Shown: piece after piece, positions 4,373 through 51,093 of the stretch | Position numbering within the stretch: position 1 is the stretch's first letter | Layout: every line of letters begins with the position of its first letter | Assembly: GCA_951812745.1 (NCBI GenBank) | Contig: OX638327.1 | Span: 1,229,914 to 1,293,913, forward strand | Reading direction: 5' to 3' | Length of the DNA stretch: 64,000 bases | DNA from: an uncultured Nitrospirales bacterium | GTDB taxonomy: Bacteria; Nitrospirota; Nitrospiria; Nitrospirales; UBA8639 | Notes under the pieces: model-generated | Told to the model about the DNA's origin: nothing | What the model saw: only the letters and a program-made list of their open reading frames with translations | The model's database searches: none | Made by a program: the position numbers and the translations under genes

Positions 4373-6415
4373 TTATTCTCTGGCGGCGTACGCCCCGGCG
4401 GCATGGCCGTCCGTGAAGTGGGCGTCGAAGCCACCGAAGAAGCCGGTCGGACGCTCAGAATCGGCGCCATAGACCTGCGCCGTCCAGACGCCGCTCTGGG
4501 CCTGGAGGCCGGTACTCGTGGCGCCATCCGAAAAGTTGCCACTTGATAGCACCTGGGACGCAAGGTCGACGGACCAAGTCGAATCGACCGCGGGGCCGGC
4601 GAAGTTATCGATGGTGCCGGTAAGACTGGGATTGGTGTCATCGAAGGTCGCCATCAAGTTGACCGTGGCGGTGAACGCACCGGAAGCCATATTCATAACG
4701 ACGTTATCCTCATCGGTGGTCCATGTGCTGGACATGCCGGCGGCTTTCCCGCTATACGTGGCCGTCAGATCCGTAAAGTTGGTGGTCGCCAGGTCGACGT
4801 TAGACGTATTGCCACCGGTCATCGCGTAGGTGTTGACCGCAGTATTGCCGGTATCTTCAGTCAGCCAGTGGCCAAACTGCGCGTACAGGGTTTCCGGCGC
4901 ATACGTCGTGACGTTCATATCATCTGTGGTCCCGACGTACTCAGCTTCCACGTCAGTCGGCGTGAAGTACCAACTGCCGGTCAGATTGCTGTCATCGTCC
5001 ACACTACAATCGCTACCGGCGCAGAAAGACCTACCTGCGATGCCCATATAGCTGGCGTCGGTATACTCCGTGCCATAGTCCACGGGGCCGGTCGGCGTTG
5101 TGCCGGAGCTCGCGGCGGCGGCGGCCATGCCGGCAAACGAAGCCGCGTCAACAAGTTCGGTTCCGCCGCCCGTCGCGGTGACCGGCAATGACTCGAGAAC
5201 CTTACCTGCGTCCGTGACGATTTCGGCCCAGGTCATGCCCACGGCGTTATCCATCATGACCGCGTCTGGGAAGGCCGTCGCGTCGGGTGCCGTGGTTCCA
5301 TGGTCGCCCCTCGCTCGGGAGCCGTCGGTAGCGGACGTAGGCTCGAGCGCAGCGGTAATGTCTTCCGCCACCAGCCGTCCGTAGTCCTCGGGGGTCATCG
5401 GGTTGTCCTCGGTACCCGTGACTGCTTGAACAGCGGTTGTCAAAGCTGGGTCATTGGCAGACGCCTGGGCCGCTGCGAGCTGCGTGTTTGCAACCGCGAT
5501 CGCCGCGTTAAGCGCCCTGGTCAGAGCGTCTGTCGTGTCGGCATCGGCATCGGGAGCCAAGGCAGCCACCGCATCCACCGCATCCTGGGCAGCCACAACA
5601 GCAGCGTCCCCAGCCTCTTTGGCAGTCAGCACTGACCGGGCGTTCTCCGTCGCTTTTGCGGAGTTTCCAGCAACGCCCGCCGCACGCGTGGTGATCAGCG
5701 ACATGTTGGTTGTTGCCGTCGTCAAGGCCTCATCCGCGGCCATCGCGGCGCCAGTGGCGTTGTCTCTCGCGTTCTGCGCCGTCTCGAAATGGGTGATCCG
5801 GTCCTTCAGCCCCTGGACCTCTGCCGGCGTGATGTCCTCCCGGCCCATCAGGTCCGTGATCTCTGCCAGCGTGAGAGTCGTATCCGGCCGACCCATCAGA
5901 GCCGTGATCTCTGCCAGCGTGAGATTCGTATCCGGCCGACCCATCAGAGCCATGATCTCTACCAGCGTGAGATCCGTATCCGGCCGACCCATCAGGTCCG
6001 TGATCTCTGCCAGCGTGAGAGTCGTATCCGGCCGACCCGTCAGAGCCGTGATCTCTGCCAGCGTGAGATCCGTATCCGGCCGACCCATCAGAGCCGTGAT
6101 CTCTGCCAGCGTGAGATCCGTATCCGGCCGACCCATCAGAGCCGTGATCTCTGCCAGCGTGAGATCCGTATCCGGCCGACCCATCAGAGCCATGATCTCT
6201 ACCAGCGTGAGATCCGTATCCGGCCGACCCATCAGAGCCGTGATCTCTGCCAGCGTGAGAGTCGTATCCGGCCGGGCCTCTAATGCATCGATGGCGTCCT
6301 GCGTCGCTCGATCGCCCCCAACCATCAGGCTCGTTCCGCCACCTCCACCGCATCCGGCTAACAACGCCACTGCGGCAATCGTAAAAAATCCCCACACGAG
6401 TCGTTTCATCTTCAT
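4373..6415 (-). CDS. Repeat-bearing surface lipoprotein, probable Slam substrate
   Basis: 680 residues. A lipobox (VALLAGC, Cys at about 22) is followed by a Gly stretch, then nine tandem 16-residue units of the type GRPDTDLTLAEITALM and a degenerate tenth. An Ala-rich helical region with likely coiled coil follows. The C-terminal part is beta-rich and ends GFFGGFDAHFTDGHAAGAY, resembling the small barrel of TbpB-like Slam substrates. AAGGAG stands before the first ATG. The gene next downstream is the Slam-like translocator. The ligand is unknown. The repeats are nearly identical at DNA level, so copy number may vary between strains. Confidence 0.75.
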   Translation of the reverse strand: MKMKRLVWGFFTIAAVALLAGCGGGGGTSLMVGGDRATQDAIDALEARPDTTLTLAEITALMGRPDTDLTLVEIMALMGRPDTDLTLAEITALMGRPDTDLTLAEITALMGRPDTDLTLAEITALTGRPDTTLTLAEITDLMGRPDTDLTLVEIMALMGRPDTNLTLAEITALMGRPDTTLTLAEITDLMGREDITPAEVQGLKDRITHFETAQNARDNATGAAMAADEALTTATTNMSLITTRAAGVAGNSAKATENARSVLTAKEAGDAAVVAAQDAVDAVAALAPDADADTTDALTRALNAAIAVANTQLAAAQASANDPALTTAVQAVTGTEDNPMTPEDYGRLVAEDITAALEPTSATDGSRARGDHGTTAPDATAFPDAVMMDNAVGMTWAEIVTDAGKVLESLPVTATGGGTELVDAASFAGMAAAAASSGTTPTGPVDYGTEYTDASYMGIAGRSFCAGSDCSVDDDSNLTGSWYFTPTDVEAEYVGTTDDMNVTTYAPETLYAQFGHWLTEDTGNTAVNTYAMTGGNTSNVDLATTNFTDLTATYSGKAAGMSSTWTTDEDNVVMNMASGAFTATVNLMATFDDTNPSLTGTIDNFAGPAVDSTWSVDLASQVLSSGNFSDGATSTGLQAQSGVWTAQVYGADSERPTGFFGGFDAHFTDGHAAGAYAARE
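5834..6274 (-). repeat. 48-bp in-frame tandem repeat array, 9 units
   Basis: Nine occurrences of TATCCGGCCG at exact 48-bp spacing (5881, 5929, 5977, 6025, 6073, 6121, 6169, 6217, 6265). Units fall into sub-types such as AEITALM, VEIMALM and AEITDLM. The block VEIM-AEIT appears twice in similar order, suggesting segmental duplication of several units at once. Confidence 0.95.
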
Positions 6416-39560: not shown

Positions 39561-39773
39561 TGGTGCCGAAGCCGGTGACTCGAAGTCGCATGAGCTGAAG
39601 CCCGCTCATGCTCCCACTAGGGGGCCACGCCCCCTCGTGCCTCGCCTGCGGCTCGGTCACCCCATGAAGGGGGAACACCCCCTTCAAAACCCCCTGTTCG
39701 AGTCCCGCCTTTACGCCTATTGTCGATGGTGTTGCCTCTAGTGGGTAATACCGCTTATCGCTTGTCAAGCTTA
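39561..39773 (-). repeat. tRNA-tail element at tRNA-Leu, single unit
   Basis: On the minus strand, directly after the tRNA-Leu CCA, 213 bp end with a second copy of the tRNA 3' tail (TTCGAGTC, AC, CGGCTTCGGCACCA). The core (39609-39685) has a hairpin GAAGGGGG-TGTT-CCCCCTTC and a second GAGGGGGCGTGGCCCCCT, then CTAGTGGGAG and a third hairpin CATGAGC/GCTCATG. The core matches the tRNA-Gly units at 50531-51093 at about four of five positions. Confidence 0.8.
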
Positions 39774-39858
39774 TGGTGCCGAAGCCGGGACTCGAACCCG
39801 GATGGGTTGCCCCACACGCCCCTCAAACGTGCGTGTCTACCAGTTCCACCACTTCGGC
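39774..39858 (-). tRNA. tRNA-Leu (GAG)
   Basis: 85 nt including encoded CCA. Acceptor GCCGAAG/CTTCGGC, anticodon loop TTGAGGG with anticodon GAG, a long class II variable arm, and T arm CCGGGTTCGAGTCCCGG. A sharp promoter (TTGACA, 18 bp, TATAAT) lies upstream. Confidence 0.95.
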
Positions 39859-50402: not shown

Positions 50403-50431
50403 TTGACAGAGTCCCATACGCGACCTAGAAT
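50403..50431 (+). promoter_or_regulatory. Sigma70-type promoter of tRNA-Gly
   Basis: TTGACA at 50403-50408, 17-bp spacer, TAGAAT at 50426-50431, 24 bases before the tRNA 5' end. Confidence 0.85.
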
Positions 50432-50455: not shown

Positions 50456-50530
50456 GCGGGAATAGCTCAGTGGTAGAGCATCGCCTTGCCAAGGCGAGGG
50501 TCGGGGGTTCAAATCCCCTTTCCCGCTCCA
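50456..50530 (+). tRNA. tRNA-Gly (GCC)
   Basis: 75 nt with encoded CCA. Acceptor GCGGGAA/TTTCCCGC, D arm with TAGCTCAGTGGTAGAGCA, anticodon loop TTGCCAA (GCC), T arm GGGGGTTCAAATCCCC. Its 3' part from 50503 is repeated three times downstream. Confidence 0.97.
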
Positions 50531-50720
50531 ACTTTCCCCACAACGCAGCCGATGGATTTGACCTCCCGACCGGGGATTCCGAAAGGGGTGTGCCCCTTTC
50601 GCGGGGTGACCGGAGCGGAGCGCAGGCGCGAGGGGGCATGGCCCCCTAGCGGGAGCCGGCAAAGACGGATTTCTGTCTGCGCCGGCGACGGAGGGGGTTC
50701 AAATCCCCTTTCCCGCTCCA
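50531..50720 (+). repeat. tRNA-tail element unit 1 (190 bp)
   Basis: Starts ACTTTCCCCACAACGCAG and has hairpin GAAAGGGG-TGTG-CCCCTTTC, then GGGGTGACCGGAGCGG, hairpin GAGGGGGCATGGCCCCCT, CTAGCGGGAG, hairpin GCCGGC...GCCGGC, and an exact 28-nt copy of the tRNA-Gly tail (50693-50720). No frame in it is credible as a protein. Confidence 0.9.
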
Positions 50721-50904
50721 ACTTTCCCCACAACGCAGCCGATGGATTTGACCTCCCGACCGGGGATTCCGAAAGGGGTGTGCCCCTTTCGCGGGGTGAC
50801 CGGAGCGGAGCGCAGGCGCGAGGGGGCATGGCCCCCTAGCGGGAGCCGGCAAAGATCTGTCTACGCCGGCGACGGAGGGGGTTCAAATCCCCTTTCCCGC
50901 TCCA
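50721..50904 (+). repeat. tRNA-tail element unit 2 (184 bp)
   Basis: As unit 1 but with a shorter apical part in the third hairpin (AAGATCTGTCTACG), so its GCCGGC stem still closes. Ends with the tail copy at 50877-50904. Confidence 0.9.
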
Positions 50905-51093
50905 ACTTTCCCCCAATGCAGCCGATGGATTTGACCTCCCGACCGGGGATTCCGAAAGGGGTGTGCCCCTTTCGCGGGGTGACCGGAGCGGAGCGCAGGC
51001 GCGAGGGGGCGTGGCCCCCTAGCGGGAGCCGGCAAAGACGGATTTCTGTCTGCGCCGGCGACGGAGGGGGTTCAAATCCCCTTTCCCGCTCCA
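50905..51093 (+). repeat. tRNA-tail element unit 3 (189 bp)
   Basis: Very close to unit 1, with GGGGGCGTGGCC in the second hairpin and a two-base change at its start (ACTTTCCCCCAATGCAG). Ends with the tail copy at 51066-51093, then ACTTTCTACAAAG, where the shared ACTTTC stops. Confidence 0.9.

Follow-up and report, generated by a model that had tools for sequence, protein, structure and literature searches.

A family of tRNA-linked repeats in Nitrospirota with inverted and direct copies of the adjacent tRNA end

The tRNA-Gly(GCC) gene in the stretch of DNA analysed here (64,000 nucleotides from an uncultured Nitrospirales bacterium, hereafter the window) is followed by three tandem units, each of which carries an inverted and a direct copy of the tRNA end around a hairpin-rich core. 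The pattern at this locus is real, chance being excluded, and it is one instance of a wider set. We consider it reasonably probable that each unit is an RNA module of the type represented by the tRNA-linked repeats (TLRs) of Escherichia coli.

The units behind tRNA-Gly and their relatives

The tRNA-Gly(GCC) gene, with its CCA encoded, occupies positions 50456..50530 of the + strand (ARAGORN; Rfam RF00005, 74.3 bits). The promoter-like, sigma-70-like site TTGACA-17-TAGAAT lies 5' of it (50403..50431, +; 11 of 12 consensus matches), and transcription from this site would run through the units. As the sequence-only reading of this DNA had described, units of 190, 184 and 189 bp follow on the same strand, at 50531..50720, 50721..50904 and 50905..51093. 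All three end in GGGGGTTCAAATCCCCTTTCCCGCTCCA, 28 nt that are the same as the 3' end of tRNA-Gly and comprise its T arm, 3' acceptor strand, discriminator and CCA, and then continue with ACTTTC. Unit 1 contains a left arm (LA; GGATTTGACCTCCCGACC, 50554..50571, +), which repeats the tRNA variable loop and T arm in inverted orientation and is identical to the tRNA reverse complement at 16 of 18 positions; a conserved core (50572..50656, +; L001:1617-1701 in covariance model R1) with the hairpins H1 (GAAAGGGG/CCCCTTTC) and H3 (GAGGGGGC/GCCCCCT); a hairpin H4 (GCCGGC/GCCGGC, 50655..50686, +) that keeps its pairing among copies with variable sequence; and a right arm (RA, 50693..50720, +), the exact 28-nt copy of the tRNA 3' end including the CCA. 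Unit 2 is built in the same way (LA 50744-50761, core 50762-50846, H4 50845-50870, RA 50877-50904), as is unit 3 (LA 50927-50944, core 50945-51029, H4 51028-51059, RA 51066-51093), so that every Gly unit has the inverted variable-loop and T-arm copy to the left of its hairpins. Tandem Repeats Finder reports a period of 190 with 3.2 copies, 95% matches and a score of 1124, and the folding energy of a single unit is -98.1 kcal/mol, where shuffled sequences average -83.7 (z = -3.1; 1 of 200 shuffles equally good). The three hairpins per unit named in the sequence-only reading were all found, and its view that no protein frame is credible holds as well: the long frames over the units are merely the same GC-rich repeat DNA, on both strands. 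Elsewhere in the window, positions 5840-6274 hold another tandem repeat, with a 48-bp unit, 9.1 copies and 93% matches.

The host genome is a single contig of 2.35 Mb, 100% complete, and has the 85-nt core at four other sites, each closely 3' of a tRNA: Ser(CGA), Ser(GGA), Ser(TGA) and Leu(GAG). The last of these lies on the - strand of the window and is the fourth copy there, with tRNA-Leu(GAG) at 39774..39858 (ARAGORN), an LA that inverts the tRNA-Leu T arm at 39695..39712, the core (L004) at 39610..39694 (94.2 bits with the covariance model) and an RA that copies the tRNA-Leu 3' end with one extra base at 39561..39585. The covariance-model scan of Nitrospirota that had been proposed from the sequence alone was run with R1, the model of the 85-nt core built from 20 cores, and found the family in 55 of 396 sampled Nitrospirota genomes, all 55 within the window's order; 33 of the 49 genomes of the window's taxonomic family have cores. 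An exact-pattern scan of 84,980 species genomes returned 49 stretches, 34 of them behind a tRNA, and all in Nitrospirota apart from one chance match (Janibacter). Carriage by phages or plasmids was rejected, as viral, phage and plasmid collections gave zero matches to the units. In Rfam, only tRNA passed the gathering threshold, and relaxing the cut-off to E up to 1 brought no credible match over the units (four loci). A description of such elements in Nitrospirota was not found in the literature covered, from which subscription journals are mostly missing.

A same-strand tRNA lies upstream of 89 of the 103 inspected copies (42 Ser, 20 Gly, 13 Leu, 7 Thr, 3 Ala, 2 Met, 1 Asp and 1 unassigned). 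Units that stand singly begin mostly 20-125 nt from the tRNA, about 36-53 nt for Gly, Thr and Ala and 75-85 nt for Ser and Leu. The sequence-only reading had named a core often away from tRNA genes as what would refute it; 14 of the 103 lack a recognised upstream tRNA. Five of these have tRNA remnants or a tRNA at a contig edge, and six sit in a MITE-like palindrome in one genome group. This element, found in some Nitrospira, is a palindrome of ~330 bp with ends (TIR) CTAGCCCGCATTATTCACGA that holds the short core in its middle and has no tRNA (loci L086, L087, L093, L109, L115, L123, L137, L145, L151, L155 and L159). Two orphan units, L128 and L129, have a Ser-type RA (L128 also a Ser-type LA) and no recognisable upstream tRNA. 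The cores fall into two subfamilies, one of 85 nt (typical of Ser and Leu copies, plus the Gly copies of f1/f2) and one of 69 nt (short-variable-loop tRNAs, in the family that contains Nitrospira). A core tree of 85 rows has too few columns for resolution and implies 15 changes of tRNA isotype; since such changes are few, most copies seem to have been inherited in place or exchanged among loci of one isotype.

Arms matched to the tRNA and a conserved RNA structure

In the sense of the tRNA, a unit runs from a spacer through the LA, the core with H1 and H3, and H4 to the RA and its CCA; the spacer between tRNA and LA is roughly 20-60 nt long and unconserved. Both arms fit the tRNA next to them, with a mean alignment score of 28.8 for the LA against its own tRNA versus 17.0 against tRNAs for other amino acids, and of 41.2 versus 17.4 for the RA. 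With tRNA coordinates counted back from the terminal A, the core-proximal end of the LA is at -24 or -25 in essentially all Ser and Leu copies and at about -32 in short-variable-loop tRNAs. Most Ser copies have an RA that begins at -23, and in short-loop copies it mostly begins at -28 or -32; the RA alignment extends to -29 or -32 in several Leu and a few Ser copies. LA and RA start at about the same tRNA nucleotide, which varies with the tRNA. In most full copies the RA reproduces 22 nt or more of the tRNA 3' end, with minor changes at most, the 28 nt in the window being exact. By inspection, most Ser RAs have 1-2 nt added between positions 60 and 61; in Gly(CCC/TCC), Thr, Asp and Ala(GGC) copies, most RAs have one extra nucleotide between 51 and 52. 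Each site is 7 nt away from the junction, which base is present varies, and the window's Gly units are without it. Because the RA often has this extra nucleotide, the LA sometimes fits the tRNA better than the RA does. The longest LA:RA helix (P1) is 9.2 for own arms versus 7.6 for swapped ones, and the changes seen in LAs comprise 20 that keep a G-U pair, 14 that break it as A-C and 25 transversions.

It had been proposed from the sequence alone that AGCGGGA can pair with TCCCGCT and that each unit could thereby fold into a mini-tRNA of acceptor and T arm. The pairing is present in the window's units but is coincidental, as the pairing in other copies does not track the tRNA. The mini-tRNA itself was rejected: acceptor pairing with the own tRNA is no better than with shuffled or swapped sequences, the Ser RA is without the 5' T-stem strand, and many RAs have an extra T-arm nucleotide. 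The proposal fails because the acceptor-like helix is independent of the host tRNA.

The hairpins show the structural covariation that the sequence-only reading expected of a structured RNA. Two-sided Watson-Crick changes affect 12 pairs of H1, H3 and H4 in the Ser/Leu set (38 sequences) and, in the short-loop set (26 sequences), 20 pairs that include some of P1; both counts are inflated by the relatedness of the sequences. H4 differs in sequence from locus to locus and is still paired (GCGCGG/CCGCGC, GCATGAGC/GCTCATGC, GCTGGC/GCCAGC, ATCGGT/ACCGAT and others). Among stem mismatches in H1, H3 and H4, read on the tRNA-sense strand, 51 are GU versus 20 AC (symmetric scoring; binomial p 0.0003, a test that ignores kinship and is likewise inflated by it), and in the short-loop set 22 cells are GU versus 3 AC. 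Since G-U outnumbers A-C in the stems, selection on the sense-strand RNA is suggested, with the reservation that C-to-T changes on the non-template strand act in the same direction. This bias suggests that the conserved hairpins act as RNA of the tRNA-sense strand. Among the Gly(CCC) copies of nine genomes, identity is 0.98 in the RA, 0.88 in H4 and 0.85 in the core, versus 0.57 in the spacer, 0.50 downstream and 0.48 for random sequence. Constraint at an old locus is favoured over recent transfer of the whole stretch, because the spacer and downstream sequence are near random and RA, H4 and core are conserved.

Conservation at fixed loci would also be expected of a host regulatory switch, in which an antisense LA blocks folding of the tRNA through its variable loop and T arm and the RA, as a sense decoy, frees the tRNA and tunes its supply. 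The tRNA:LA and LA:RA pairings that such a switch needs are possible and mutually exclusive, and the LA matches the tRNA at variable-loop bases that are unpaired with the RA (GACAA in Gly(CCC), GACAG in Gly(TCC)). We nevertheless regard a switch as quite unlikely: units are frequently lost, or reduced to the LA at the Leu loci of two genomes (G001 and G007), decayed copies are common, the seven isotypes have no common physiology, and a terminator-like or ligand-sensing feature is absent.

The most likely scenario is that the units are TLR-type modules that exploit the maturation of the tRNA. A unit would be transcribed together with the tRNA, and its RA, by mimicking the tRNA 3' end, would recruit the same 3'-processing enzymes, which would free an RNA of ~187 nt ending at or near the CCA; the P1 stem between LA and RA would keep the false 3' end off the tRNA 5' half. 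In the minimum-energy fold of the tRNA with unit 1, it is the RA, not the tRNA's own 3' end, that pairs with the acceptor 5' strand, so the LA does not fully neutralise the RA in silico. The presence of the core in the tRNA-less MITE-like palindrome of some Nitrospira also counts against the reading as TLR-type modules. The broader proposal of the sequence-only reading, a structured RNA co-transcribed with the tRNA, appears likely given the promoter-like site, the compensatory pairing, the G-U bias of the sense strand and the precedent in E. coli (PMC8144298).

Gain, loss and the origin of the units

The number of units at tRNA-Gly(GCC), which the sequence-only reading had suggested comparing among relatives, is 0 in G001, 1 in G009, 2 in G011 and 3 in the window. 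Over 523-709 nt the downstream flanks of G001 and G009/G011 agree at 96-97%, and the sites differ by whole units (186 and 374 nt). L197 and L198 form a second pair of empty and filled sites, at tRNA-Ser(GGA). Whole units are thus gained or lost precisely. Tandem number would change through recombination between direct repeats, and the Gly triplet may have arisen by unequal recombination between direct repeats of 28 nt or more. Truncated or decayed copies are numerous, and at the Leu loci of G001 and G007 the core and RA are deleted and the LA alone remains. Because it is often lost, the family is probably semi-selfish or accessory. G307 has a single tRNA-Gly(CCC) gene, which is disrupted, with LA, core and RA following directly on its 5' half (1-39) (L104/L247, G307:C104:21002-21193). 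Since the gene is interrupted after position 39, the RA is the only 3' end of this tRNA-Gly(CCC); the genome still has tRNA-Gly(TCC). The Ser(GGA) copy of the host genome has a diverged second core nested within it (L003:1590-1676, 34.6 bits), and a similar one occurs in L018. The nested core has hairpins around GTCCTAGGGGC...GCCCCTGGGAAAGC, and a related version lies within a tRNA-Gly unit of G015.

Some junctions point to rearrangement. The flank of the Ser(GGA) element in the host genome is 98.6% identical over 570 nt to the flank directly behind tRNA-Ser(CGA) in G006 (L199 and L193); since one flank is common to different tRNA-Ser genes, tRNA 3' ends and RAs are rearrangement junctions. 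The flank TTTACACAGTCTCACG follows tRNA-Ser(CGA), tRNA-Ser(GGA) and an RA in different genomes (L184, L197, L198), and in L184 and L197 it precedes a frame resembling the start of a P4-type integrase, as if islands could use an RA as an alternative attachment site.

It is possible, though unlikely, that the units are non-autonomous integrative elements for which the tRNA 3' end is the att site, a recombinase is supplied by other islands and the RA is the displaced original end. Insertion at the tRNA 3' end as att site had been one of two proposals of the sequence-only reading, and the precise empty sites, the patchy presence and the tandem arrays, together with the direct repeats of the tRNA end, support it in part. 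The 7-nt spacing between the junction and the extra RA base resembles a recombinase overlap, and within the genus the flank TTTACACAGTC is found after tRNA-Ser(CGA), tRNA-Ser(GGA) and an RA (L184, L197, L198). However, the only tyrosine recombinases of the complete host genome are of the XerD and XerC type: there are two, XerD above its cut-off and a XerC-like one above the general Xer subfamily cut-off. This survey, which covered tyrosine recombinases, found no cognate integrase beyond the Xer type in the complete genome. Integrases normally serve one tRNA sequence each, whereas the arms match seven or more isotypes. Inverted tRNA copies are foreign to att sites, the spacer, part of the supposed mobile unit, is randomised where LA, core and RA are conserved, and the viral, phage and plasmid collections are again without a match. 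The units thus resemble integrative elements and islands at tRNA att sites in their duplicated tRNA 3' end and precise empty sites, and differ from them in having no integrase, an inverted arm, RNA-like structure and many isotypes.

Other classes of mobile element fare no better. A tRNA-primed or tRNA-targeted retroelement was rejected, as an RVT_1 reverse transcriptase that could act in trans is absent from the complete host genome. A REP/BIME with a REP-associated transposase (RAYT) was rejected as well, the same genome having no Y1 HUH transposase (PF01797). Like MITE and BIME palindromic repeats, the units are short, non-coding, palindromic and dispersed, and the core is shared with a MITE-like palindrome; unlike them, they take their terminal arms from the host tRNA, are placed 3' of tRNA genes and occur in a host without a Y1 transposase.

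Because the two arms share their start coordinate, we argue that the tRNA end was copied in two directions: new units would arise when it is copied in both orientations around a pre-existing core. A path of forward, reverse and forward copying, which would start the arms at about the same tRNA coordinate, could also make the units a mere by-product, in that template switching during replication at tRNA genes copies inverted and direct sequence around a hairpin and the result persists by chance, without function. The shared downstream flank of L199 and L193 (98.6%), which marks tRNA ends and RAs as recombination junctions, fits this account. However, neutral units are not expected to keep their core sequence in three families or to undergo compensatory evolution in H1, H3 and H4, and the RA, including its extra base, is 98% conserved where the flanks are random; we consider a functionless by-product highly improbable.

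Relation to the E. coli repeats and wider meaning

The tRNA-linked repeats of E. coli were first described in 1978, and we know of no explanation for their origin. TLRs are defined by 3'-terminal 18-19 bp that are the same as those of the upstream tRNA or 5S rRNA, and 22 units at ten loci have been listed, including the tyrT/tyrV RtT (RttR) RNA and the 5S-linked sRNAs RrA, RrB and RrF (PMC8144298). Transcription and processing are demonstrated for RrA, RrB and RrF, with RrB being processed out of a tRNA/rRNA precursor; the function of the TLRs of tRNA operons is still not known, and the claim that the tyrT unit acts in recovery from starvation has been retracted (PMC8144298). RNAs of the RtT family are detected in Actinobacillus too (PMC4986893).

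In our comparison with twelve K-12 loci, the direct copy starts at -18 or -19 in every unit of lysT, W, Y, Z, Q, lysV, argQ, Z, V, tyrT and tyrV. An inverted copy lies to the left of the core in the Lys, Arg and Tyr units, with 7 to 10 of 10 bases matching the own tRNA, and its arm starts at -18 in the Lys and Arg units and at about -18 in Tyr. The inverted arm of the Tyr TLR is significant alone (0 of 500 shuffles), whereas the short inverted arms of Lys and Arg are mostly below significance (p 0.01-0.65); in lysQ and lysV the inverted stretch is a different one (0 of 500 shuffles), and in the K-12 5S unit the same shuffle test found no inverted arm. An inverted arm from the same tRNA coordinate is thus also a feature of E. 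coli TLRs, clear for Tyr and weaker for Lys and Arg. Nitrospirota units and TLRs further share their position directly 3' of a tRNA on the same strand (in TLRs, of a tRNA or 5S gene in the same operon), an RA-type copy of the tRNA 3' end with CCA, a tandem arrangement (one to five units in TLRs; 1, 2 or 3 in Nitrospirota) and a hairpin-rich core. They differ in phylum, tRNAs and core, in the start of the arms (-24 or -32 in Nitrospirota, -18 in TLRs) and in the linkage to 5S rRNA, which is seen in E. coli alone; processing, shown for E. coli RrB, is predicted in Nitrospirota.

Sequence homology with the E. coli TLRs was rejected, as there was no significant covariance-model match in either direction. 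The Rfam model of RtT RNA (RF00391), which resembles the Nitrospirota units in position and layout, gave no match to the units of the window with E up to 1 (four loci), and model R1 scored at chance level on the E. coli TLR loci (best E 1.8). Three of eleven weak R1 matches in E. coli fall on TLR units (L232, L233, L237), and there may be a very deep relation between the cores of the two groups. As far as comparison of the sequences goes, the layout is common to both phyla and the sequence is not; we call the units TLR-like and do not claim homology.

It is tempting to go further and propose that the TLR-type modules of Enterobacterales and Nitrospirota represent one general class of element, both ends of which are built from the adjacent tRNA (inverted and direct, from one start nucleotide), which is copied without a host reverse transcriptase or a dedicated integrase and whose RNA product exploits tRNA 3' processing. 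We hold this only tentatively, as a generalisation with a modest chance of being correct.

The Nitrospirota units provide a second, apparently unrelated TLR-like set from a different phylum, comprising some 100 copies at seven isotypes (Ser, Leu, Gly, Thr, Ala, Met and Asp). That inverted and direct arms should match the tRNA at all seven, in a layout that matches E. coli, came as a surprise. The set yields rules that were beyond the reach of E. coli alone, namely tRNA-matched arms, a common start nucleotide, an extra RA base 7 nt from the junction and compensation on the sense strand. Because of these rules for arms and structure, both the proposed origin, by two-way copying of the tRNA end, and the proposed function, in the processing of pre-tRNA 3' ends, become directly testable.
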